Below are positions 2 through 26,189 of a stretch of 47,068 nt of DNA, one piece after another. Source of the DNA: Sulfuriferula multivorans (lineage in GTDB: Bacteria > Pseudomonadota > Gammaproteobacteria > Burkholderiales > Sulfuriferulaceae); assembly GCF_003851125.1 (NCBI RefSeq), contig NZ_BGOW01000050.1, forward strand, positions 2,501 to 49,568, given 5' to 3'. The stretch's first letter is position 1, and the number at the start of each line of letters is the position of its first letter. Below the pieces are notes generated by a model. It was not told the DNA's origin, did not search any database, and saw nothing but the letters and a program-made list of their open reading frames with translations. The position numbers were made by a program, and so were the translations under genes.

Positions 2-322
2 AAACAGTCCACCAAGCAACGTTTCGGCGCACTCGACTTCAACTACCCGGCACACGACATCGAAACTGAGATCGTGGCCCACGAAACCGGCGTCAGTGCC
101 GAAGTGGCCGGCAAGCTTGTATCCATCGCCGAACGCGCGCGCAACCTGAAAGGCCACGGCCTCGACGAAGGCATCTCCACGCGCATGCTGATTTACGCAG
201 GCAGCCTGATCGCCAAGAACGTGGAGCCGACCGCTGCATGCCGTATGGCATTGGTGCGCCCGATTACGGATGACCCGGACATGCGCGATGCGCTGGATGC
301 GGCAGTGAGTACGTTCTTTTAA
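2..322 (+). CDS. cbbQ: CbbQ, C-terminal part (Rubisco activase AAA+ subunit), cut by the window edge
   Basis: The frame is open from base 2 and gives the last 106 residues of a MoxR-type AAA+ ATPase; the Walker motifs lie outside the window. The family is usually about 270 residues, so over half is missing. The visible part has the helical C-terminal lid, including a QRFGALDFNYP stretch, an ISTRMLIYAG sensor-2-like segment and the CRMALVRPITDD tail typical of CbbQ/NorQ proteins. CbbQ forms a hexameric ring that works with CbbO to remove inhibitory sugar phosphates from Rubisco. The assignment depends strongly on the adjacent cbbO, because NorQ is closely related and normally pairs with NorD. 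An ATG at 74 is internal and is not the start. Confidence 0.88.
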   Translation, partial: KQSTKQRFGALDFNYPAHDIETEIVAHETGVSAEVAGKLVSIAERARNLKGHGLDEGISTRMLIYAGSLIAKNVEPTAACRMALVRPITDDPDMRDALDAAVSTFF

Positions 323-443
323 GACGTTGCCGGGCGCGGCGCAGGTAATCAAATCCACGCCGTCCCGCTAACCCGTATACACCCGACTTGGCGCTGCTTT
401 GCGGCTAGTGCCAAAGGCATTCCCAATAAATTTCCGGAGCAGA

Positions 444-2798
444 ATGATGGCGCTCGAACTCGACAAGTATCAAGATATTCTGGACGAGCTCGGAGAGCAT
501 GCAGGCGAAGTGCTGCGTGCCTCCTGGGGAGAAGCTGCGCGCGTATTCAGCCCGCGCGGATTGGAACGCTATTATCTGCAAGGTGCAACCGGGCTCAAAT
601 CACTGGGGCGTGGCACTGATCTGGTGGTGTCGTTCATACAGAACGCGCCCGCCGTGGCGCGCGAGCTGGGCGAAGATGCCGTGGGCGATCTGCTCGCCGC
701 CGCAATCAAGATGTATTCCAAGACCAGCGCCGCGGTGATCGCGTCGATTTTTTCGACCAGTCCGGTGGCTGCTGCACGGTTGGGCGATCCGGAACTGTTT
801 CGCGGCTATCTGCACTTGCTTGACATGTTGCTGGCCCAGGCGCCACGCGGCGTGCGGCCGATGCTGGACCACCTCGGCACCCTGCTGGGCCAACTCACGC
901 TGGGCGGTCTGCGACGCTGGGCGTTGTGGGGTGCGCAGGCGCACAAAACCAATTTTGACGGACAACTGAAATACTTCAGCCTGGACAGCCCGGAATCCAT
1001 CGGCGTATTGCAGCGTGAACGCAAGGGCACCTTATTCATCGACGTGCAACGCCGCATCGGAATGTACCTGCGTGCCCTGTGGGGACGCGACTTCTTCCTG
1101 CGACCCACCAGCGGCGACTTCGAACAGCGCGAGGGTTACCGTCCCTATATCGATGGCTACATCATCCACCTGCCTGATGCCTACGATGATTTTGTGGCGG
1201 ATCCGGCCGCTGACGGGGCGGAGCGGATTGCCGGCATTGCCCTGTATCGAGCCAGCGCGGCGCATGCCGCATGCCATCAGGTCTACACCACACGGCAGTT
1301 TGACAGTGCCGGCCTGAGCAGTTTGCAAAAGGTGCTGATGGGCTTGATCGAGGATGCACGCGTAGAAGCGCTGGCTCTGGAAAAATTTCCTGGCCTTCGG
1401 CAGACCTGGCTGCCGCTGCATACCGCGACGCCGCAGTCGGGCGACGGCGCTGCCGCATTGATGGCACGCCTGGCGCGCGCGCTGATGGATGATACTTACC
1501 AGGATACGCACGCCTGGGTCGCACTGGGGTGCCGTTTATTCCGCGCACGCTGTACTGAATCCGAGCCCGAGGTGTGGGTACGCGAGGTGGGTATCGAGCT
1601 GGCTGACGCCCTGCTCGCATCAGGCGCGAATTACAGTCATACCAATGACGTGATCGACATCGTTTACCGTGATGACAACCGCTATATGTGGGAGTTTGAA
1701 GACATATTCGAAGCCAGCCAGGCGGTGGCCGGCATCGCCACCCAGCAGTTGCGCAAATACGTCAGCGTGATGGAGATGATCAATACGCTGGATGTTCCGG
1801 GTGCCGGCGACGATGCCAACGAGATATGGGTGCTGAACAGCGAATTCTTTCGCGACGAGGAAAGCACCAGCATCAACCAGCAGGAAGGCCGTGAACCACC
1901 GCCGGATCCTTACCACTATGCTGAATGGGATTATCAGATGCAGCTGGATCGGCCAGACTGGTGCACCGTGCTGGAGAAGCGTCCGAAAGCCGGCGAAGTC
2001 GAGCTGATTGACGAGATTGTCGTCAAACACAAGCCACTCGTAGCGCGTCTCAAGCACTTGATCGAGGCAATGCAACCACAGGGGGTGCAGCGTCTGCGCA
2101 AGCAGGAAGACGGCGACGAAATCGACCTCAACGCGGCGGTGAGCGCCATGATCGACATCCGGCTGGGCGAGCAGCCCGACCCGCGCATTATGATGCGCAA
2201 CGTGCGCAAGGTGCGCGATTTGTCCGTACTGCTACTGATCGATTTGTCCGAATCCACGAATGACAGCGTGCTGGGTTCTGACAGCACAGTGCTGCAGCTT
2301 GCGCGTGAAGCGACGGTGCTGCTGGCCGATGCGCTGGACAAAATCGGTGACCCCTTTGCGCTGCATGGTTTTGATTCCAATGGCCGCCATGACGTGGAGT
2401 ATTTTCGTTTCAAGGATTTCGACGACGATTTCAACGACAAGGCGAAGTCTCGTCTGGCGGGCATGAGTGGGCAACTATCCACGCGCATGGGTGCGGCGAT
2501 GCGGCATGCTGGCTCACTGCTCAAGCGACAACCCAGCCATAAAAAACTGCTGCTGGTGATTACCGACGGCGAACCCGCCGACAACGACGTGCGCGATCCG
2601 CAATACCTGCGATTCGACGCCAAAAAAGCAGTGGAAGAACTGACCAGAGAGGGCATTGCGACCTACTGTCTGAGCCTGGATCCGCGCGCCGATGAGTATG
2701 TGTCGCGCATTTTTGGCGCGCGCAATTACATGGTGGTCGATCATGTTGAACGCCTGCCGGAAAAACTGCCGCTGCTTTATATGGGATTGACCCGATGA
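444..2798 (+). CDS. cbbO: CbbO, VWA-domain Rubisco activase adaptor
   Basis: About 784 residues, matching the CbbO/NorD size class. The C-terminal von Willebrand A domain (about residues 585-784) carries a MIDAS: DLSES near residue 600, a TRMGAAMRHAG threonine segment and the ITDGEPADND aspartate segment near 705. In the known CbbQO activase, CbbO bridges the CbbQ ring to Rubisco, and its MIDAS is needed for activation. The open frame extends upstream to a TTG at 399, but ATG 444 or the adjacent ATG 447 follows a CGGAG ribosome site and is preferred. It lies 121 bases after cbbQ, and its stop overlaps the SulP start in an ATGA, which points to translational coupling. NorD is the main alternative; the Calvin-cycle genes in this window favour CbbO. 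Confidence 0.88.
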   Translation: MMALELDKYQDILDELGEHAGEVLRASWGEAARVFSPRGLERYYLQGATGLKSLGRGTDLVVSFIQNAPAVARELGEDAVGDLLAAAIKMYSKTSAAVIASIFSTSPVAAARLGDPELFRGYLHLLDMLLAQAPRGVRPMLDHLGTLLGQLTLGGLRRWALWGAQAHKTNFDGQLKYFSLDSPESIGVLQRERKGTLFIDVQRRIGMYLRALWGRDFFLRPTSGDFEQREGYRPYIDGYIIHLPDAYDDFVADPAADGAERIAGIALYRASAAHAACHQVYTTRQFDSAGLSSLQKVLMGLIEDARVEALALEKFPGLRQTWLPLHTATPQSGDGAAALMARLARALMDDTYQDTHAWVALGCRLFRARCTESEPEVWVREVGIELADALLASGANYSHTNDVIDIVYRDDNRYMWEFEDIFEASQAVAGIATQQLRKYVSVMEMINTLDVPGAGDDANEIWVLNSEFFRDEESTSINQQEGREPPPDPYHYAEWDYQMQLDRPDWCTVLEKRPKAGEVELIDEIVVKHKPLVARLKHLIEAMQPQGVQRLRKQEDGDEIDLNAAVSAMIDIRLGEQPDPRIMMRNVRKVRDLSVLLLIDLSESTNDSVLGSDSTVLQLAREATVLLADALDKIGDPFALHGFDSNGRHDVEYFRFKDFDDDFNDKAKSRLAGMSGQLSTRMGAAMRHAGSLLKRQPSHKKLLLVITDGEPADNDVRDPQYLRFDAKKAVEELTREGIATYCLSLDPRADEYVSRIFGARNYMVVDHVERLPEKLPLLYMGLTR

Positions 2799-4906
2799 CC
2801 CGCACGATAAAAACCCGTGCGTCCACGCTGTTTCCGTTTTTGCGCTGGTTTCCGCTCAGCACTGAAAAACTACGCGCCGACATGGTGGCCGGCATTACTG
2901 TCGCGTTGATACTGGTGCCGCAAAGCATGGCCTATGCCCAGCTTGCAGGCTTGCCCGTGGTGTATGGTCTGTATGCGTCATTGTTGCCGGTGGTGGTGGC
3001 TTCGATGTGGGGTTCGTCGAATCAGCTACACACCGGGCCGGTGGCAATGCTGGCGCTGATCTCGGCGGTGACCATCATTCCGTTCGCTTCGCCTGGCAGC
3101 GACAAATTCATCGAACTGTCCATCATGCTGGCGTTAATGGTCGGCGTGTTGCGTCTGGTGCTGGGCATGCTGCGTCTGGGGGCGCTGGTTAACCTGTTGT
3201 CCAGCCCGGTCGTGGTTGGCTTCACCAATGCCGCCGCGCTGATTATCGGGCTGTCATTGCTGGCCGAGGTGCTAAACGTGCCGTTCCCGCGCAGCGATGT
3301 ATTCATGGCAGATTTATGGCGGGTCGTGGCACAGGTGCAGCACGCGCATCTGTCAACGCTGGGATTTGCCTTTGCCACGGCCGCTATCATGCTCGCTTTG
3401 CGCCGCTATATGCCGAAAATTCCCGGTATTCTGGTAGCAGTAGTATTGACCACACTGGTGAGTTGGGTGATCGGCTTTGAGCGTAACCAGACAGTGCCCT
3501 TGTCATCGGTGACGACAGCCGCGGCTCGCTCCGACATCGATGCGTATGCCCAGACAGAGCGCCAGTTGCAGGTTTTGGCCAGCCAGCTTAGCGATATCAA
3601 CCAACGACTGCGTGAATTAGACAATGGCTCACATGACGCCATCGAAAGAGGTGCTGAGCTGCATGCACAGGCCGAGTGGGCGCGTCGCAAAATAGCCCGG
3701 CTCAAGGCGGACAACAATCTGCGCAGAGTTCAGCTCCATGCACTCCGGTTTGTACGCGAAGCGCAGCCAGACGGCCAGGTTCGCTACCGGCTTGCAGCCG
3801 ATGGAGAAGGTGCAAAATGGCGCTTTGGTAAGATCAAGGACGGCCAGGTCAGCTTTAGCGGCGGTGGTCGCGTGGTCGGGAATATTCCGGCCGGCTTGCC
3901 GTCATTTTCGCCCCCCAGCTTGCGGGGCGATTTACTGCTGCCTCTGCTGCCGGGGGCACTGGTGATGGCATTGATCGGTTTTCTTGAAGCGACGTCCATT
4001 TCCAAGGCGATTTCAGCCATGACGCGCGAGCGTATCAACCCCAGCCGCGAACTGATCGGGCAGGGTCTGGCGAACATTGTCGGTTCGTTCTGCCTGTCGT
4101 TCGTGGTGAGTGGTTCGTTTTCGCGTTCAGCAGTGGTAGCTCGTACCGGGGCGCGTACCGGGCTGTTTGCCATCATCAGCGCGCTGATGGTGGCGCTGGT
4201 GCTTCTGTTCTTTACGCACTATCAGTACCATTTGCCACTGGCAGTGCTGGCGGTGATTGTCATGCTGTCGGTGTTCGACCTGATTAAAGTCCGTCCGCTG
4301 TTGATGGCGTGGAAGGTCGATCGCATGGGCGCGGTAACGGGGGCATTCACGTTTGTTGCAACGCTATCCATGGCACCGTCAATTGCCAATGGTGTATTGG
4401 CCGGCGTGGCGTTGACGATTACCATATTTCTGGTGCGGCGCATGAAGCCGCGAGCTGTCTTGTTGGGACAGATGCCGGATGGAAGCCTCGCCGACATGAA
4501 AGCGCATGGGTTGTCGCCGGTCAGCCCGCATTTTGTGATAATGCGCTACGATGGTTCGCTGGATTTCCTCAATGCGGCGCATTTCGAGGATGTGATATTG
4601 CGCGCCCATGCTGATTTCCCGCGGGCAAAAACCATACTGGTGATCGGTAATGGCATCAACAACATCGATGCTTCGGGCGAGGAAAAAATACGGGAAATCG
4701 CAAAATACATGCATGAGGCAGGCGTAAATCTGGGGTTCAGCAGCCTGAAGCAGCCGGTTCGGGAGAAGTTCGATAGAGCCGGCCTGCAACACTTGCTGGG
4801 CGCGGAAAATGTGTTCAAGAGTCGCGACATCGCATTTCAGACATTGCAGACGCGCTACGCTGCCGGCCTGCAAGCCGCTGCGTACTCGATTCAACCGGGA
4901 AAATGA
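2795..4906 (+). CDS. SulP-family anion transporter with STAS domain and an extra coiled-coil-like insert
   Basis: 703 residues, longer than the usual 500-600 of SulP carriers. The N-terminal half has the SulP core: a VAGITVALILVPQSMAYAQLAGLP segment (in two parts around residues 31-56), a GPVAMLALI helix and a GFTNAAALIIG helix. The C-terminal part (about 580-690) is a STAS domain. Roughly residues 233-355 are an unusual hydrophilic insert. Its first part is rich in Q, L, E, R and A with coiled-coil character; its second part is a small beta-like stretch. The normal SulP sequence resumes at VVGNIPAGLPSFSPPSL. By analogy with known SulP topology the insert would face the periplasm (inference). 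SulP members carry sulfate, bicarbonate (BicA) or dicarboxylates. The overlap with cbbO suggests bicarbonate or another anion linked to carbon fixation, but the substrate cannot be read from sequence. Confidence 0.85.
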   Translation: MTRTIKTRASTLFPFLRWFPLSTEKLRADMVAGITVALILVPQSMAYAQLAGLPVVYGLYASLLPVVVASMWGSSNQLHTGPVAMLALISAVTIIPFASPGSDKFIELSIMLALMVGVLRLVLGMLRLGALVNLLSSPVVVGFTNAAALIIGLSLLAEVLNVPFPRSDVFMADLWRVVAQVQHAHLSTLGFAFATAAIMLALRRYMPKIPGILVAVVLTTLVSWVIGFERNQTVPLSSVTTAAARSDIDAYAQTERQLQVLASQLSDINQRLRELDNGSHDAIERGAELHAQAEWARRKIARLKADNNLRRVQLHALRFVREAQPDGQVRYRLAADGEGAKWRFGKIKDGQVSFSGGGRVVGNIPAGLPSFSPPSLRGDLLLPLLPGALVMALIGFLEATSISKAISAMTRERINPSRELIGQGLANIVGSFCLSFVVSGSFSRSAVVARTGARTGLFAIISALMVALVLLFFTHYQYHLPLAVLAVIVMLSVFDLIKVRPLLMAWKVDRMGAVTGAFTFVATLSMAPSIANGVLAGVALTITIFLVRRMKPRAVLLGQMPDGSLADMKAHGLSPVSPHFVIMRYDGSLDFLNAAHFEDVILRAHADFPRAKTILVIGNGINNIDASGEEKIREIAKYMHEAGVNLGFSSLKQPVREKFDRAGLQHLLGAENVFKSRDIAFQTLQTRYAAGLQAAAYSIQPGK

Positions 4907-4915
4907 AAGCACTTT

Positions 4916-5821
4916 ATGCCACTCGTTGATATGCAGGATATGCTCGGTCATGCCTACCGACACGGTTACGCTGTGGGTGCCTTTGGTGTGGTCAACTGGA
5001 ATGTCCTGGAAGGCGTGATCGCTGCTGCCGAGAAAATGCGCGCGCCCATCATCCTGAGCATTTCCAAGGCGTACCCCGGTACCGACACTATCGAATCACT
5101 GGCACGCGCGGTGACCGAAATGGGACATCGTGCCACCATCCCGGTGACCTTTCAGGTCGAAATAGAAAGTGACCCTGCCGGAGCAGAAGCCGCGATTGAC
5201 ATGGGTTGCTGTGGCATCGTGTTCAATGCGTCCTCGAAGCTATTGCCCGAAAATGTGGCATTGACGCAAAAAGTAGTCGCGCTGGCTGCGCCGCTGGGGG
5301 TGCTGGTGGTCGGTCGGGTGGGGCTGATCGAAACTGGGCAGGAAGACGAGCTGGTCGATGCTTCGGGGAATGGTGCAACCACACCACCGGAAGCCAAATA
5401 TTATGTGGATCGTACAGGTGTAGGGTGCTTGGCGGTGTCGGTCAGCCGGATCTGTTCAGGCGGCAGCAGCAAGTATAATTTTACCCGCCTGTCGAAAATC
5501 AACCAGGCCGTGGGCATCCCGCTTGGTATTCATGGCAGTGCTGGTTACACCGATGACCAGATGCGGCGCATGATCGGTTTTGGCGCAGCCAAGATCAATT
5601 ACAGTGCGCCGCTGCTCGATATCGCCGCTGAGCGCATACGCAACAATGTCACGGCCGGAGCGTTAGGCTATGCGGCGACGGTAGCCGGTGTGCGCGAAGC
5701 GGTGCAGCTTGAAACCGAACGCTGTATCCAGGTCTGGGGCAGCAGCGGCCGTGCAGCAGAGGTATTGCAGCAATGCCGCGCGCGCAAATCTTTTGCACCG
5801 CGTGCAGAAAAAACGGTGTGA
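4916..5821 (+). CDS. Class II fructose-bisphosphate aldolase-like protein with a degenerate zinc site
   Basis: 301 residues, alignable by eye over most of its length with the class II aldolase encoded at 25125-26189, but without that protein's C-terminal extension. The catalytic and metal residues differ. The zinc/catalytic HxDH segment reads QVEI (Q80, V81, E82, I83), so the catalytic Asp is Glu and a zinc His is Ile. The zinc Glu of the GELG motif is Arg134. The zinc His of the GTSHG motif is missing; the region reads RICSGGSSKYNF (178-189). Only the last zinc His is kept (H206, in IHGSAG). The phosphate-binding loop and the KIN segment look preserved. Ordinary zinc-dependent aldol chemistry is therefore unlikely; a divergent enzyme or a sugar-phosphate-binding regulator is possible (inference). 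It starts 9 bases after the SulP stop, in an apparent operon with cbbO and SulP. Confidence 0.82.
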   Translation: MPLVDMQDMLGHAYRHGYAVGAFGVVNWNVLEGVIAAAEKMRAPIILSISKAYPGTDTIESLARAVTEMGHRATIPVTFQVEIESDPAGAEAAIDMGCCGIVFNASSKLLPENVALTQKVVALAAPLGVLVVGRVGLIETGQEDELVDASGNGATTPPEAKYYVDRTGVGCLAVSVSRICSGGSSKYNFTRLSKINQAVGIPLGIHGSAGYTDDQMRRMIGFGAAKINYSAPLLDIAAERIRNNVTAGALGYAATVAGVREAVQLETERCIQVWGSSGRAAEVLQQCRARKSFAPRAEKTV

Positions 5822-5880: not shown

Positions 5881-6254
5881 ATGATCCAGCAACACGACCG
5901 TTTCGCACCGCGCGTTCTGCACTGGGTCGAAAACTTCAGGCTGGGGATATTTCTGCTGGGTACACTGGTGGCTGGATTTCAGGAATTGCGCATCATGGTC
6001 GATGCGGACACTGCCACGCTGACCGATCTGCTGCAACTGTTACTCTGTCTCGAAATTGTCACCATGCTCGGCCTGTATTACAAGCAGGGCCAGCTGCCTG
6101 TGCGTTTCCAATCGATATCGCTATCATCGCGCTGGCGCGTTGTATCATTCTCGGCATGAAGGAAATGGACGAATGGCGCCAGATTGGTGTGGCTGCCGTC
6201 TTCCTAATGCTTACCGTGACGGTGCTGACGGTGAATAAAGAAAGATCAAAATGA
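5881..6254 (+). pseudogene. PsiE-family membrane protein gene, frameshifted
   Basis: The first frame, from ATG 5881, encodes a PsiE-like membrane protein: a VENFRLGIFLLGTLVAG helix, then LLQLLLCLEIVTMLGLYYKQGQLPVRF. At about 6106-6110 the reading must move to another frame to continue the family pattern: PIDIAIIALARCIILGMKE, then MDEW and a last hydrophobic helix ending in VNKERSK. One missing C in the TTCC run would explain the break. The corrected frame ends with TGA at 6252-6254, overlapping the purE ATG by four bases, as expected for a natural gene end. Without the shift the protein ends early at 6159 with an unrelated tail. This is either a real inactivation or a sequencing or assembly error. 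PsiE proteins are poorly characterised phosphate-starvation-associated membrane proteins. Confidence 0.75.
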
Positions 6255-9006: not shown

Positions 9007-9693
9007 TTATTCGATCTTGATCTGGTTGAGTGTTTGTAGTGCGGTGGCGCCGTCGTCAACGATGCGTACCTGGGCAGGCAAGTAGTGCCTGTCGCGTGCC
9101 AGCCATACTTCGATCTGCTTTTCGCCCTTTTCCGGCTGGTTGCGGTAATGCAGGGTTTTGAGCGCACCGACCGGTGTGGCGAGGGTTTCCGCACCCACCA
9201 GGGTATAGACTTCGTGGCTCAGGCTATGGCCGGTAGAGACATCGAAATCGAGTTTTTTTGCACCCGGCTTGACGAACATGAATTGGTACAGCACCGACAG
9301 CCGGTCCTGGGCGTCGGCAGGCAATGTGACGGCTTCGCTGCGATCCTTGCTGGTATGGGTAACTTTCCTGGTCTTCCAGTCAAAACTGGAGCTGATATTT
9401 TTTTGTGGGGCGTCGCTGCGGGTTTGCTCGAATTTTGTGGGGCGCAGGCCGTGCGCCGTGATTTTTCCTTCACTGACACTCTCCAACTGACCTTTGAATA
9501 ATACTGCGAGCGGACCTGCGGCACGGGTCTGACTGTCAATGCGATAATTGTTGCCGTTGCGTGTATAGGTTTCGTGCACGGAACCGACTTCGAGGCCGTT
9601 ATGCGACAGGACGTAATCGATCTCCACTTGGCGTGGCGCGGCGAACGCGGGTAGCGCAATCAGGGTAAGCAACAAGGCAATGTAACGCGTCAT
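9007..9693 (-). CDS. DUF3108 domain periplasmic protein
   Basis: 228 residues with a short signal peptide (IALLLTLIALPAFA, cleavage near residue 18). The mature part is the DUF3108 fold: a beta-rich domain starting EIDYVLSHNGLEVGSVHETY and ending with LARDRHYLPAQVRIVDDG. It is the shorter sister of the next gene, and the shared order of motifs suggests duplication. Its start overlaps the purN stop by four bases, and it is probably cotranscribed with purN, as often seen in betaproteobacteria. The function is unknown; an exported or envelope-associated role follows from the signal peptide. Confidence 0.83.
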   Translation of the reverse strand: MTRYIALLLTLIALPAFAAPRQVEIDYVLSHNGLEVGSVHETYTRNGNNYRIDSQTRAAGPLAVLFKGQLESVSEGKITAHGLRPTKFEQTRSDAPQKNISSSFDWKTRKVTHTSKDRSEAVTLPADAQDRLSVLYQFMFVKPGAKKLDFDVSTGHSLSHEVYTLVGAETLATPVGALKTLHYRNQPEKGEKQIEVWLARDRHYLPAQVRIVDDGATALQTLNQIKIE

Positions 9694-10328
9694 GGCAGGC
9701 TTCCGGAAATGAATAGTGTCTGTTCAGACCCGCTATCGTCGCGCAAGTTTACCTGGCCGTTATCGAGCAACAGGAGTCGACCCTGCGCAAACCACGCAAT
9801 GGCTTTGGGGTAAACGCGGTGTTCGGCAGCCAGCACGCGTGCCGCCAATGTGGCGGCCGTGTCGTTTGAGTGCACTGCCACTGCCGCCTGCACGATGATA
9901 GGGCCGTGATCCAGCATGGGGGTAACGAAATGCACCGTGCAGCCGTGAATTTTCACGCCTTCGGCCAATGCGCGTGCGTGGGTATCAAGGCCGGGAAAGC
10001 TGGGCAATAAGGATGGGTGAATATTCATCAACCGTCCTGCGTAATGCATCACGAAGCTGTCGCCGAGAATGCGCAGGTAACCTGCCAATACCACCAGCTC
10101 CGGCTGGTAACGGTCAATGACCTCGATCAGTGCATTGTCAAATGCTTCACGACTGGCGTATTGCTTGTGATCCAGCGGCAGCGCCGGGATGCCTCGCGCG
10201 CGCGCCAGATCCAGCCCGGCGGCGTCGGGACGATTGCTGATGACGGCGGCGATCTCCACCGGGAGTTGTGCGTCCAGTATGGCCTGGAGGTTGGAGCCGC
10301 GCCCGGAAATGAGAACGACCAGTTTCAT
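9690..10328 (-). CDS. purN: Phosphoribosylglycinamide formyltransferase
   Basis: 212 residues, typical PurN. It transfers a formyl group from 10-formyl-THF to GAR, the third step of purine synthesis. Visible motifs are VVLISGRGSNLQAILDA at the N-terminus for phosphate binding, LVVLAGYLRILGDSFV, the active-site stretch NIHPSLLPSFPGLDTHARAL, and GCTVHFVTPMLDHGPII with the catalytic His and Asp. It shares one base with the ABC-F stop upstream (TGATG) and four bases with the DUF3108 start downstream, so ABC-F, purN and the two DUF3108 genes form one tight operon. Confidence 0.97.
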   Translation of the reverse strand: MKLVVLISGRGSNLQAILDAQLPVEIAAVISNRPDAAGLDLARARGIPALPLDHKQYASREAFDNALIEVIDRYQPELVVLAGYLRILGDSFVMHYAGRLMNIHPSLLPSFPGLDTHARALAEGVKIHGCTVHFVTPMLDHGPIIVQAAVAVHSNDTAATLAARVLAAEHRVYPKAIAWFAQGRLLLLDNGQVNLRDDSGSEQTLFISGSLP

Positions 10329-12013: not shown

Positions 12014-14437
12014 TTAAGCCTGGTGAGGTTTGCTCAGCTTGGTTTGCCAGTGTCCACCGCTCGGAATGTCGAGGTAATACCCCTGTACCATGTCGACGCC
12101 CATTTCCTTCAGCACCGCATAGATTTCACGGCTTTCCACGAATTCCGCGACGGTGGTTTTGCCCAGCCCGCGCGCCACGTCCACGATCGCCTTGACGAAA
12201 ACCTTATTGTCGCGTTCGAAGATGATGTCGCGGATGAACAGGCCGTCAATCTTGAGAATGTCCGCCTTGATGTGCTTGAGATACGCGAAAGATGCGAAAC
12301 CTGTGCCAAAATCGTCCAGGCAGATTATGCAGCCGGTGTGGCGTAATGCCTGGATGAAACGTTGTGCCTCCTGCAGGTCCGACAATGCCGAGGTTTCGGT
12401 GATTTCGATCATCAGGCGGTGCGGCTCCACCTGGGCGGAGAGCAATTCGTCGGAAATGAACAGGGCGAGACCCGGATCGTCCAGCGAGCGCCCGGAAATG
12501 TTGACGGCGAGCGCAGGAATGTCCGGTTTGGCCTGAAGCAGCGCAATGCTCTGCTTCAGCACCCAGCGGTCTATCTGTAAAATCTGGCCGTTTTTTTCTG
12601 CCAGCGGAATGAAATGGCCTGGCATGATGAGCTGTTCCGTGTCAGTCTCGTCGCGCATGCGCAGCAGGACTTCCAGGTGCGCCAGCACGCCGCTCTGGGT
12701 GTGATAAATTCCCTGAAAGTGTAATACGAAGCGGTCTTCTTCCAGCGCGCGCCCGATGCGTTCATTCCAGCTCATGCGCTGGATCATCTCGCGCGAGGTA
12801 TCCAGGTCGGCCCGATAGCTGCGCCAGGCATTTTTGCCTGCTTCCTTGGCTTGATACATGGCGGCATCCGCGTGGGCAACCAGTTGCTCGGCACTTTCCG
12901 CCTGCTGGGGATAGGCGGCAATACCGAGGCTGCAAGTCAGGCGCAGGTTTTTACCCTCGAAGCGAAATGGAATCTGCGCCACCGCGCGCACGACGCGTTC
13001 TGCCAGGGATTGAGCGTCCGCTTCGCTTGCGTCGGGCATCAGTATGGCGAATTCGTCGCCACCCAGCCGGCAGAAGACTTCATTGCTGCGGATCAGCGCG
13101 CCCACAGCGCCGGCCACGCGGATCAGCATCGAGTCCCCGGCGCGGTGACCGAAGGTATCGTTGATGTATTTGAATTCGTCCAGGTCGAAAAACAGCAGGC
13201 TGCCGCTATTGCCGTGACGCGTGATGTCGCCCACCATGCGCCACAGTTCGTCCTCAAAACGGCGCCGGTTGTAGAGACCGGTGAGCGAGTCGCGCTCAGC
13301 CAGGTAAATCAGCTGTTCGGCAGTCTGGCGTTCGCGCGTGACGTCTTCAAAAATCAGGATGCGCCCGATGATGCGGCCGTCCTGCTCGCGCACCGGGTAG
13401 GACAGCTGGGTAATCACGCGGCCGTCGGTCATTTCAATTTCCAGACTTTCCGAGCTCTCGTGCGTGCTCATCACGCCCATGATGTGGCGCGAGAAATGGT
13501 CCGGGCGTGCCAGCACACAACCTGAGTCATTGAGCACGTCGGCAATTTCGCGCCCGACCAGATTATCGGTGTTGCGGATCATCCATATCTGGGTGAAAGC
13601 CGGGTTGGTATAGGCTACGCGGTTATTGATGGTGACAAACAGGATGCCCATGTTCATTGCCGACAGTAGCGCCAGCAAGCGGGCTTTTTCTACGCGCGTT
13701 TCGGCGAGATAGCGACGCTGGATGGATTCGGCCTGCTGCAGTGCCTCAATGCGGCTGCGCAGGCTGGCGGCCATGGCGTTAAAAGCTTGATTGAGTTGCC
13801 CCACTTCGTCATGGCTGGTGACCGGGAGATGGATATTGAGGTTACCCGCCGCGATGGTCTTGCTGGCCTCGGCCAGTCGACGCAAATGGCGGGTAAGCCA
13901 CAGGCTGAGAACAATCAGCAGTAGAAAAGACGCTATGAGTGCAATCCCGCCTATCACGATGATTTTGTATTTCATGCGTGCCTGGGCGCTCGTGAGAAAA
14001 TCCGTGGAAACGCCGAAATAAAGCGTTCCATAACGCGCACTTCCCAGCGTGATGGGCATGGCTGTGTTGTACACGCGATCGCTGCCCGCATCGGCGAAGC
14101 CTTGGTCTTGCTTGGGTAATATGCCGCTATCCAGCCCCGCTGCGGCCAGTTGCTTGCCTTGCGCGTCAGTCACAACCAGATAGCTGAGGCCTTTTTCCTG
14201 GTGCATCGAGTTGAGTAATTCCTGTAGCCCGGCGACATCCCGCTGGAACAGCGCGGTGCTTAGTGCGGCATTGAGCGGTAAGCGCAGTTCCTGTATGCGC
14301 AACTCGGCATTTTCCAGCAGGCTTTGCTGAGTCTCACGTAAGTTGGTAAGCGCGAGCAAGCCCAGCAGGGTGAACTGCAGCAGCATGGTGGTCAGAAACA
14401 GTTTGACCCACAAAGGATAGGAGAGATGGCGATTCAT
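12014..14437 (-). CDS. Membrane GGDEF-EAL cyclic-di-GMP protein with HAMP and PAS domains
   Basis: 807 residues. One N-terminal membrane helix (about 9-30), a periplasmic sensing region (about 31-155), a second helix (about 158-182), HAMP (about 183-240), a PAS-like region (about 260-365), GGDEF (about 375-540) and EAL (about 550-800). The synthase motif is intact (RLGGDEF, near 459). The inhibitory RxxD site reads RSNE. In the phosphodiesterase domain the name-giving motif is EVL (near 587), but the other catalytic segments are present: VNISGRSL, IEITETSAL, CLDDFGTGF (near 707), LKIDGLFI, AEFVE and QGYY. Both activities are possible. It overlaps the PhnD-like gene by four bases, suggesting that the binding protein supplies the periplasmic signal. 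Confidence 0.92.
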   Translation of the reverse strand: MNRHLSYPLWVKLFLTTMLLQFTLLGLLALTNLRETQQSLLENAELRIQELRLPLNAALSTALFQRDVAGLQELLNSMHQEKGLSYLVVTDAQGKQLAAAGLDSGILPKQDQGFADAGSDRVYNTAMPITLGSARYGTLYFGVSTDFLTSAQARMKYKIIVIGGIALIASFLLLIVLSLWLTRHLRRLAEASKTIAAGNLNIHLPVTSHDEVGQLNQAFNAMAASLRSRIEALQQAESIQRRYLAETRVEKARLLALLSAMNMGILFVTINNRVAYTNPAFTQIWMIRNTDNLVGREIADVLNDSGCVLARPDHFSRHIMGVMSTHESSESLEIEMTDGRVITQLSYPVREQDGRIIGRILIFEDVTRERQTAEQLIYLAERDSLTGLYNRRRFEDELWRMVGDITRHGNSGSLLFFDLDEFKYINDTFGHRAGDSMLIRVAGAVGALIRSNEVFCRLGGDEFAILMPDASEADAQSLAERVVRAVAQIPFRFEGKNLRLTCSLGIAAYPQQAESAEQLVAHADAAMYQAKEAGKNAWRSYRADLDTSREMIQRMSWNERIGRALEEDRFVLHFQGIYHTQSGVLAHLEVLLRMRDETDTEQLIMPGHFIPLAEKNGQILQIDRWVLKQSIALLQAKPDIPALAVNISGRSLDDPGLALFISDELLSAQVEPHRLMIEITETSALSDLQEAQRFIQALRHTGCIICLDDFGTGFASFAYLKHIKADILKIDGLFIRDIIFERDNKVFVKAIVDVARGLGKTTVAEFVESREIYAVLKEMGVDMVQGYYLDIPSGGHWQTKLSKPHQA

Positions 14438-25124: not shown

Positions 25125-26189
25125 ATGGCACTTGTATCCCTGCGCCAACTGTTGGACCATGCCGCTGAAAACGGCTATGGCCTGCCCGCATTCAACGTCA
25201 ACAACCTGGAACAAGTTCAGGCCATTATGGAAGCCGCCGATGAATGCGGCAGCCCGGTCATCATGCAAGCCTCTGCCGGCGCGCGCAAATACGCCGGCGC
25301 CAGCTTTCTGCGGCATTTGATCACCGCTGCGGTCGAAGCTTATCCGCATATTCCTATTGTCATGCACCAGGACCACGGCGCCAGCGCCCCGGTGTGTATT
25401 CGTTCCATTACCGACGGCTTCTCTTCGGTGATGATGGACGGTTCCCTGCAGGAAGATGCCAAGACCCCGGCCAGCTATGAATACAACGTGGAGATCACCC
25501 GCAGGGTAGTCGATATCGCCCATGCTGTAGGTGTTTCCGTGGAAGGCGAACTGGGCTGTCTGGGTTCACTGGAAACCGGTATGGCCGGTGAGGAAGATGG
25601 TAGTGGCGCTGAAGGCATGCTGGATCATTCACAATTGCTGACCGACCCGGAAGAAGCCGCCGATTTCGTCAAGAAAACCGGCGTGGATGCGTTGGCTATC
25701 GCGATTGGCACTTCGCACGGCGCATACAAATTTACCCGTCCGCCCACCGGCGACATCCTCGCCATTGGCCGTATCAAGGAAATCCACGCACGCATCCCCA
25801 ACACGCACTTGGTGATGCACGGCTCTTCCTCGGTGCCGCAGGAATGGCTGAAAATCATCAACGACTTCGGCGGCGACATGGGTGAAACCTACGGTGTGCC
25901 GGTGGAAGAAATCATCGAAGGTATCAAGCATGGCGTGCGCAAAGTCAATATCGACACTGACCTGCGCATGGCATCCACGGGTGCGGTGCGCAAGTTCCTG
26001 GCGGAAAACAAAAAGGAATTTGATCCGCGCAAATTCCTGATTGCTTCCACCAAGGCCATGAAGGCTATTTGTAAAGCGCGCTACGAAGCCTTCGGCAGCG
26101 CAGGTCAGGCGACCAAGATCAAGCCGGTTGATCTGGAAAAAATGGCTGCAAAATATGCCAAGGGCGAGCTGGCTGCAATTATCAAATAA
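25125..26189 (+). CDS. fba: Class II fructose-1,6-bisphosphate aldolase (zinc type)
   Basis: 354 residues, the Calvin-subtype class II aldolase often called CbbA. All metal and catalytic residues are present: HQDHG (catalytic Asp and zinc His), GELGCLG (zinc Glu), GTSHGAYKF (zinc His) and VMHGSSSVP (zinc His). It makes fructose-1,6-bisphosphate, and can make sedoheptulose-1,7-bisphosphate in some members, from dihydroxyacetone phosphate and an aldose phosphate. An AAGGAG ribosome site precedes the ATG. It is the last gene of the block and is followed by a strong terminator. It is the useful reference for the degenerate paralogue at 4916-5821. Confidence 0.97.

Follow-up and report, generated by a model that had tools for sequence, protein, structure and literature searches.

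Why should a gene of class II aldolase ancestry, coding for a protein that has lost the catalytic aspartate and most of the zinc ligands of that enzyme class, be maintained just downstream of the genes of a Rubisco activase? The question is raised by a locus of Sulfuriferula multivorans, analysed here as part of a contiguous stretch of 47,068 nucleotides (the window). A preliminary description, made from the letters of the DNA, had proposed a selective loss of the metal site with retention of the fold, a new activity or a sugar-phosphate sensor as its purpose, and a functional tie to Rubisco. We have examined these propositions by comparison of the protein with its relatives, of the locus with related loci and of the observed changes with those elsewhere in the family.

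An aldolase fold without the aldolase metal site

The open reading frame at 4916-5821 (+) begins with ATG, runs without internal stops and encodes 301 amino acids, of which residues 4-279 match the Pfam family F_bP_aldolase (PF01116) at E 1e-47. This is the sole Pfam match of the protein, as it is of the orthologue in locus L004, and neither carries a Dabb domain. With NCBIfam the window protein stays below the cut-off of every model, the best one scoring 154 bits against a required 423. An AlphaFold (AF2) model computed from a 55-row alignment has a mean pLDDT of 87, and a Foldseek search of the PDB with this model returned class II aldolases as best matches (TM, query, ~0.84; 25-30% identity). 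Among the 50 PDB matches listed (TM, query, 0.76-0.85; 21-30% identity), 49 are aldolases of the same class and the remaining one is an integrative model whose title is silent on the matter. By sequence profile and TIM-barrel fold alike, the protein belongs to the PF01116 fold family. A search of the genome of origin with the protein (E 0.001) gave two matches only, namely itself and an intact paralogue. The features relevant to the site are given below, where clade A denotes the group of 12 orthologous rows described in a later section.

4916..5821, + strand: putative pseudo-aldolase gene at the 3' end of a carboxysome cluster; class II aldolase fold without metal site; PF01116, E 1e-47
5159..5164, + strand: codons of Glu82-Ile83, replacing the catalytic Asp and the first zinc His; Glu82 in 12/12 clade-A rows, Val83 in 11/12, Ile in the window
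5225..5227, + strand: codon of Asn104; Asp in 52/52 intact family rows, Asn in 12/12 clade-A rows
5309..5317, + strand: codons of Val132-Gly-Arg134, replacing EGE (of EGELG); Gln134 in 11/12 clade-A rows
5447..5455, + strand: codons of Arg178-Ile-Cys180, replacing T-V-H (second zinc His; GT.HG motif); Arg178 in 12/12 clade-A rows
5531..5533, + strand: codon of His206, the only zinc-ligand His retained
25125..26189, + strand: intact class II fructose-bisphosphate aldolase (FBA), the paralogue used for comparison; TIGR01521, 655.8 bits (cut-off 496); Pfam E 1.2e-95

Aligned with the paralogue and the family, the window protein shows the substitutions D82E, H83I, D104N, E132V, E134R and H180C, and it keeps H206. 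At the six site positions, which in class II aldolases are the catalytic Asp, a His, two Glu and two further His (the columns themselves being defined by the alignment), the intact family thus reads DHEEHH and the window protein EIVRCH, and the set of three zinc histidines and catalytic aspartate that marks the enzyme is not present. The assignments made earlier by eye are confirmed in this respect: Ile83, Arg134 and a stretch 178-184 devoid of His (Cys180 in the alignment) account for the lost ligands, Glu82 stands for the catalytic Asp in 12/12 rows, and His206 is the sole survivor. Ligands displaced yet present, the outcome that the preliminary description had named as contrary to its own interpretation, were not seen in the alignment with paralogue and family. 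Judged from these residues and from the selection described below, the protein is best classed as a pseudoenzyme, which has lost its catalytic residues and whose gene is kept by selection.

Retention of the fold, as proposed, is borne out by the PF01116 match and the AF2 model, whereas the phosphate-binding segments, likewise thought to be kept, are so only in part. The motifs HGG[TS]G and NYYT, presumably those that bind phosphate, appear in the window as HGSAG and NYSA. HGG[TS]G is retained in 1/12 clade-A rows, its Ser/Thr being changed in 11/12; in NYYT, Ala replaces the Thr in the window and in the closest relative (G001), the remaining rows having Ser or Thr.

The gene belongs to an alpha-carboxysome cluster

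Upstream of the gene, on the same strand, lie two genes of the CbbQO Rubisco activase and a transporter gene.

2..322, + strand: 3' part of cbbQ (MoxR AAA+ subunit of the CbbQO Rubisco activase); CbbQ_C PF08406, E 6.9e-35; the gene starts upstream of the window
399..2798, + strand: cbbO (VWA-domain adaptor subunit of CbbQO); VWA PF00092, E 6.2e-08
2795..4906, + strand: SulP-family transporter with STAS domain; PF00916, E 9.4e-88, and PF01740, E 9e-10

The adjacency of cbbQ, cbbO, SulP and the gene, remarked on before, is real and tight: the SulP frame overlaps the cbbO stop at an ATGA, and the pseudo-aldolase frame starts 10 bp beyond the end of the SulP stop. Between 2600 and 6400 no promoter-like sites were found, and terminator-like sites numbered 5, compared to 3.8 (sd 1.6) in shuffles. 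In the SulP protein the Sulfate_transp match is interrupted by a hydrophilic insert of ~125 residues (~228-355), comparable to that in both SulP copies of G045. The SulP gene of G001 (L158) is read in two overlapping frames and looks frame-broken; the pseudo-aldolase behind it is intact. Past the gene, at 5881-6253 of the window, a small membrane-protein ORF, presumably PsiE-like, is apparently split over two frames; in the G001 region it occupies one frame.

Eight of the 12 clade-A loci show, in one stretch and on one strand, the order cbbL-cbbS-csoS2-csoSCA-csoS4A-csoS4B-csoS1-bacterioferritin-acRAF-like-ParA-cbbQ-cbbO-(transporter)-gene, in which csoS1 is present in two or three copies and which in one case begins at cbbS; gene names were assigned by Pfam on one genome, and the acRAF-like protein matches a pterin dehydratase model weakly. 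Among the other four, the window and G017 are split at contig ends, and the stretches of L058 and L062 are partial. In the genome of the window, ParA-cbbQ-cbbO-SulP-gene occupy one contig, and the part from cbbL to csoS1 extends up to the end of a second contig. Location of the gene within the cso cluster and on its strand is hence seen directly in eight loci, and for the window by way of ParA-cbbQ-cbbO. The window CbbO is, by tblastn, 82-95% identical to that of the eight clade-A neighbourhoods containing CbbO, as opposed to 50-62% in 12 others.

The transporter position ahead of the gene is filled by SulP in the window and G001, by a SulP-SulP pair in G045, by DabBA in G008, G012, G013 and L062, and by DabBA-SulP in G017; it is empty in G006, G007 and G011, and in L058 DabBA is followed by other ORFs. 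A tie of the gene to the transporter instead of the carboxysome is rejected on account of this variation. Across the 18 genomes of the genus, CsoS2 was detected in ten, and clade A is present in 9/10 CsoS2-positive compared to 0/8 CsoS2-negative genomes (Fisher p 4e-4; four of the eight negative genomes are only 64-80% complete). In G010, the one CsoS2-positive genome without clade A, the CsoS2 is lower-scoring and the family is absent. The suggested link to the Rubisco activase genes is therefore real, and it is more exactly described as a link to the alpha-carboxysome cluster.

Orthologues under purifying selection

Clade A comprises 12 distinct rows, ten of them from 100 related genomes and two (L058, L062) from a scan of GTDB genomes. 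The 11 orthologues are 68-92% identical to the window protein, and all lack the metal site. Members of the wider family were counted by hand in 21 of the 100 related genomes, 10 of these being clade A; the clade-A rows outside the genus Sulfuriferula are G045, L058 (Gallionellaceae) and L062 (Nitrosomonadales).

The open frame is intact in 12/12 rows. Nei-Gojobori dN/dS lies between 0.05 and 0.14 in 11 clade-A pairs at dS up to ~1.1, to be compared with 0.06-0.14 in 15 pairs of intact family members and 0.02-0.04 in three of six group C pairs, the other three being saturated. With dN/dS in this range the clade-A gene is not decaying; together with the conservation, these values lead us to reject decay, in agreement with the original view of the loss as selective. 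The residues E82, N104, V132, R178, Y187 and S230 are fixed in 12/12 rows and Q134 in 11/12, hence the changes at the site do not represent free drift. Two more specific expectations failed. Arg134, proposed as a key residue, is private to the window species, Gln taking its place in the 11 other rows, and it was rejected as such; the SGGSS loop recurs in 2/12 rows.

Broken or fragmentary copies were also encountered. In L062, a second clade-A copy stands broken in tandem behind the intact one (9481-10192), and in L163 (G011) a fragment at 13261-13416, resembling an intact-type aldolase with DHG motif, lies between cbbO and the pseudo-aldolase. The latter is possibly the trace of an earlier aldolase copy.

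Relation to a Rubisco-linked aldolase-Dabb family

Clade A is part of a family of Rubisco-linked aldolase-Dabb proteins (groups B and C and a gamma-proteobacterial Q branch) that are 35-47% identical, share N- and C-terminal motifs and mostly stand beside cbbQ-cbbO or cbbL. Descent from this family is evident from the position of clade A inside a 39-row clade (SH-aLRT 100 and 99) and from the family motifs, kept by clade A in 104/108 N-terminal and 70/84 C-terminal cells. The first tree held 98 family rows: 52 intact, 24 of the gamma-proteobacterial branch, 12 of clade A and 10 others. Outside clade A the site is intact in 52/86 rows and a Dabb match is present in 71/80 loci, whereas the window protein has neither. 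The latter count refers to the best 80 of the 369 relatives found in the GTDB scan, which were analysed as loci; Pfam confirms the Dabb match, situated behind the aldolase, in L014, L066 and L172 and does not reach it in L012, and group C, L069, L079 and L083 are likewise without Dabb. The family members tested likewise stay below all NCBIfam cut-offs.

CbbO, CbbL or CbbM is encoded in 62 of the best 80 loci, and in 50/61 of those with at least 5 kb of upstream sequence. The common order, where carboxysome genes are absent, is cbbL-cbbS-cbbQ-cbbO-(100-aa protein)-aldolase. The protein of ~100 amino acids recurs in Rubisco operons, either at this place, before the aldolase, or between cbbS and cbbQ (e.g., L166, 6683-6985); the copy tested had no Pfam or NCBIfam match at E 0.001. 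Among 369 genomes sampled at class level, the family was detected in 50 (E 1e-60), and Rubisco is present in 49/50 of these as compared to 126/319 genomes without the family; the exception, G398, is an assembly of ~400 contigs. The aldolase-Dabb gene was also observed after a divergent second Rubisco (CbbL ~56% and CbbS ~28% identical to the reference) in L081, L096, L104, L110, L112, L116, L188, L189, L193 and L195. In six genomes with both kinds of gene (G006, G008, G011, G012, G013, G017), the two copies differ in the type of the accompanying cbbO, one type standing with the clade-A copy and another with the remaining copy.

The intact cousins are very likely aldolases. The 24 rows of the gamma-proteobacterial branch (including L066, L073, L075 and L087) carry a natural H180Q together with E132V/I/T in an otherwise intact site, and group C of Sulfuriferula has E134K/I and H180Q. 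According to PDB titles, an H180Q variant of the Helicobacter pylori FBA was crystallised with FBP and with DHAP; by analogy, proteins of the gamma branch may bind substrate yet fail to turn it over normally. A search of open-access papers for literature on this variant found none.

Recurrent loss of the metal site beside carboxysome genes

Clade A does not stand alone in having lost its metal site in such a setting. Written in the order of the six site positions, the family gene of G097, which follows a full cso cluster and cbbO at ~14 bp past the end of the cbbO match, reads RWGV.E; at the 3' end of other cso clusters, G408 and G180 read GSE[AG].Y, G254 DREKTH and G339 HHEARY; and the Dab-linked members G305 and G002 read DGEERS and DREEDR. 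The class-level search at E 1e-60 missed the most eroded members, and a looser one (E 1e-12) of 71 CsoS2-positive genomes added four readable open frames, G219 and G334 (AVEEDD), G188 (GPICPP) and G135 (YQGWER). These four (L208-L211) point away from the cbbL-cbbS-csoS2 genes that they immediately precede, whereas the window gene lies 3' in its cluster. The family member of G304 is split over two frames.

A family member adjoins cso genes in 12/71 CsoS2-positive genomes, so the family is no core part of the carboxysome; eight of the 12 have lost at least two of the histidines, one is split and three are intact. A strict rule that carboxysomal members are disarmed was rejected, given the exceptions G134, G335, G432/L136 and, from the GTDB loci, L074 and L098, all intact beside carboxysome genes, and the carboxysome-linked L113, which has lost one His only. 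The existence of intact members in this position implies that the carboxysome setting does not force the loss.

The association was also expressed in counts of rows. In a first set, which considered the same strand and upstream genes only (L062 being set by hand as Dab-linked) and which omits 22 family rows whose context is uninformative or whose cso or dab genes lie on another side, 18/20 carboxysome- or Dab-linked rows are disarmed compared to 2/72 other Rubisco-linked rows. In a wider set, which admitted cso or Dab genes regardless of side and strand, was partly set by hand and omits 17 rows, at least two histidines are lost in 23/29 as against 2/72 rows. The sample is non-random, low-scoring and CsoS2-near members having been picked deliberately, and Fisher values at the level of rows ignore kinship and are descriptive only. 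Dropped before the trees were built were the truncated G144 and G249 and, later, the split G304 and G361 and the fragment G440. With the site columns masked, the first tree requires at least six changes for zinc-His loss, and the wider tree at least six for the loss of two or more His; long branches meet in the latter (G188 with G135, with a program warning), and several placements are unsure. Supported independent contrasts number two in the first set (four on all branches) and four in the wider set (eight), and of the four in the wider set an average of 1.6 go in the expected direction and 2.4 show no difference. So few independent contrasts cannot reach significance in either set, and disarming beside carboxysome genes is a pattern and not a statistical proof.

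Retained motifs and competing explanations

What the disarmed proteins have kept was assessed on 93 columns conserved to at least 90% in 61 intact rows, with region limits set by us. In clade A, 157/348 conserved cells remain at the barrel mouth, where the active site lies, compared to 435/576 elsewhere and to the N- and C-terminal values given above. The trend is stronger in G408/G180 (mouth 8/58, elsewhere 61/96, N-terminal 15/18, C-terminal 12/14), and G219 follows it also (11/29, 36/48, 8/9 and 6/7). Of the 29 mouth columns, G334, G188 and G135 retain 9, 4 and 2; of the nine N-terminal columns 8, 9 and 6; and of the seven C-terminal columns 6, 4 (the weaker case) and 6. G254/G339, G002 and L088 are milder, with 69-74% of mouth cells retained. 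Normal FBAs, for comparison, keep only 10/28 C-terminal cells. Active-site motifs have thus been eroded and the terminal motifs of the family retained, from which pattern of residues the protein seems to be selected for something other than the old active site.

The explanation we favour is that a Rubisco-linked class II aldolase, typically fused to Dabb and encoded beside cbbLS-cbbQ-cbbO, would have entered the alpha-carboxysome cluster, been stripped there of metal site and Dabb domain, and persisted in disarmed form at the cluster's 3' end. Its product, folded but not catalytic, would serve carboxysomal Rubisco or CbbQO as a partner through the retained surfaces, be it as adaptor, stabiliser or cargo, and not by aldol cleavage. 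We give this proposal, in which both the partner and the function are inferred, an even chance of being correct. CbbO or Rubisco is our first guess for the binding partner, since the gene accompanies the cluster irrespective of whether the intervening transporter is present, absent or swapped. The broader notion of a repeated recruitment, in which aldolases of Rubisco operons came to lie beside alpha-carboxysome genes, were disarmed in that place and became structural or regulatory partners of carboxysomal Rubisco and CbbQO, is advanced more tentatively. If it were true, the active Dabb-fused ancestors would also have been Rubisco partners, perhaps cleaving misfire products such as xylulose-1,5-bisphosphate.

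An alternative we consider unlikely is that of a new enzyme, its barrel mouth rebuilt around E82, R178, Q134, Y187 and H206 for a metal-independent reaction or one with another metal. The low dN/dS and the fixation of residues in clade A, E82, R178, Y187 and S230 in particular, make a rebuilt active site or a new ligand conceivable, yet the window species differs at 134 (Arg) and 180 (Cys) while under the same selection, and the other carboxysome-linked members have changed the same positions to unrelated residues (GSEA, HHEA, RWGV, AVEE, GPI, YQGW), so that no common new site is visible.

The sugar-phosphate sensor of the preliminary description, which would bind a bisphosphate of the Calvin cycle or a Rubisco inhibitor without cleaving it and signal to CbbQO, has lost ground and now appears distinctly improbable. 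The position of the gene beside an activase described as removing sugar phosphates (PMC8718961, in the portion available) would suit it, as would the added positive charge of R178 and the natural H180Q of the gamma branch when seen with the ligand-bound H. pylori variant; the reading is weakened by the altered phosphate-binding motifs, with the HGG[TS]G Ser/Thr changed in 11/12 clade-A rows and the NYYT Thr replaced by Ala in the window and G001, and further by their outright loss in several other carboxysome-linked members.

That the protein is an ordinary Calvin-cycle class II aldolase with unusual ligands, the view behind the annotation of the Acidithiobacillus ferrooxidans relative as FBA (PMC2942843, as far as accessible), is in keeping with the family fold, the Calvin-cycle operon and the intact cousins, but it is made very improbable by the replacement of the catalytic Asp, two of three zinc His, D104, E132 and E134 in 12/12 rows and by the complete FBA at 25125-26189. 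A recently disabled gene drifting to loss, for which the decayed copies in L062, G011 and G304 provide a precedent, is scarcely credible in view of 12 intact frames and the dN/dS maintained over dS up to ~1.1.

Comparison with known systems

Work on the engineering of carbon fixation takes in carboxysomal Rubisco and its activase, and the disarmed aldolase offers a concrete and easily testable candidate part: as suggested here, a non-catalytic helper of the carbon-fixing machinery not recognised as such and concealed by routine annotation under the name fructose-bisphosphate aldolase. Because the family spans intact, one-ligand-lost and fully disarmed members in related operons, the step from enzyme to partner is directly testable.

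The class II fructose/tagatose-bisphosphate aldolases (PF01116; KbaY/GatY, FBA class IIb, SFP aldolase) share the fold with the window protein across the whole domain; the latter differs in lacking the catalytic Asp and the metal site and in NCBIfam scores far below the cut-offs. The CbbQO activase of carboxysome clusters is encoded in the same operon, and the published cluster types with and without dab match those found here; the word aldolase is absent from the accessible text of that account (PMC8718961). The satellite genes of the cso locus (acRAF, ParA, DabAB, Ham1), which the locus frequently carries and some of which are of unknown function, are likewise accessory around the shell genes (PMC12918739); aldolase is absent from the accessible parts of this review as well as of PMC12285272 and PMC5552976. 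Aldolase genes near Rubisco have been reported and taken as encoding the Calvin-cycle enzyme (PMC7895386, in part). Active-site loss in Rubisco- or carboxysome-linked aldolases was not found in our searches of the open-access literature, including the available parts of PMC4207490, PMC10892978 and PMC6908604, nor was any account of Rubisco, aldolase and Dabb domain together.

The closest known system is the cbb1 operon of A. ferrooxidans, in which, according to the sections accessible, cbbL1S1, seven cso genes, cbbQ1, cbbO1 and cbbA form one transcript by RT-PCR (PMC2942843). The gene cbbA (ACK80290.1; Pfam01116 and Pfam07876; annotated as fructose-bisphosphate aldolase; also in PMC6458275, in part) resembles the window gene in position, as it closes a carboxysome operon behind cbbQ1-cbbO1. 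Translated by eye in reverse complement, the published primer for cbbA gives GYAVGA, part of the N-terminal motif of the family, which indicates that the family had been described in such an operon before, under the name of an ordinary aldolase; an exact match to the primer was found in none of 199 loci or 369 genomes. What is already in print, therefore, is a Dabb-fused aldolase gene in a carboxysome operon; the disarming was not found in print in these searches. Compared by annotation, domains and primer, in so far as the source gives them, A. ferrooxidans CbbA is a Dabb-fused annotated aldolase, whereas the window protein is without both Dabb domain and metal site.
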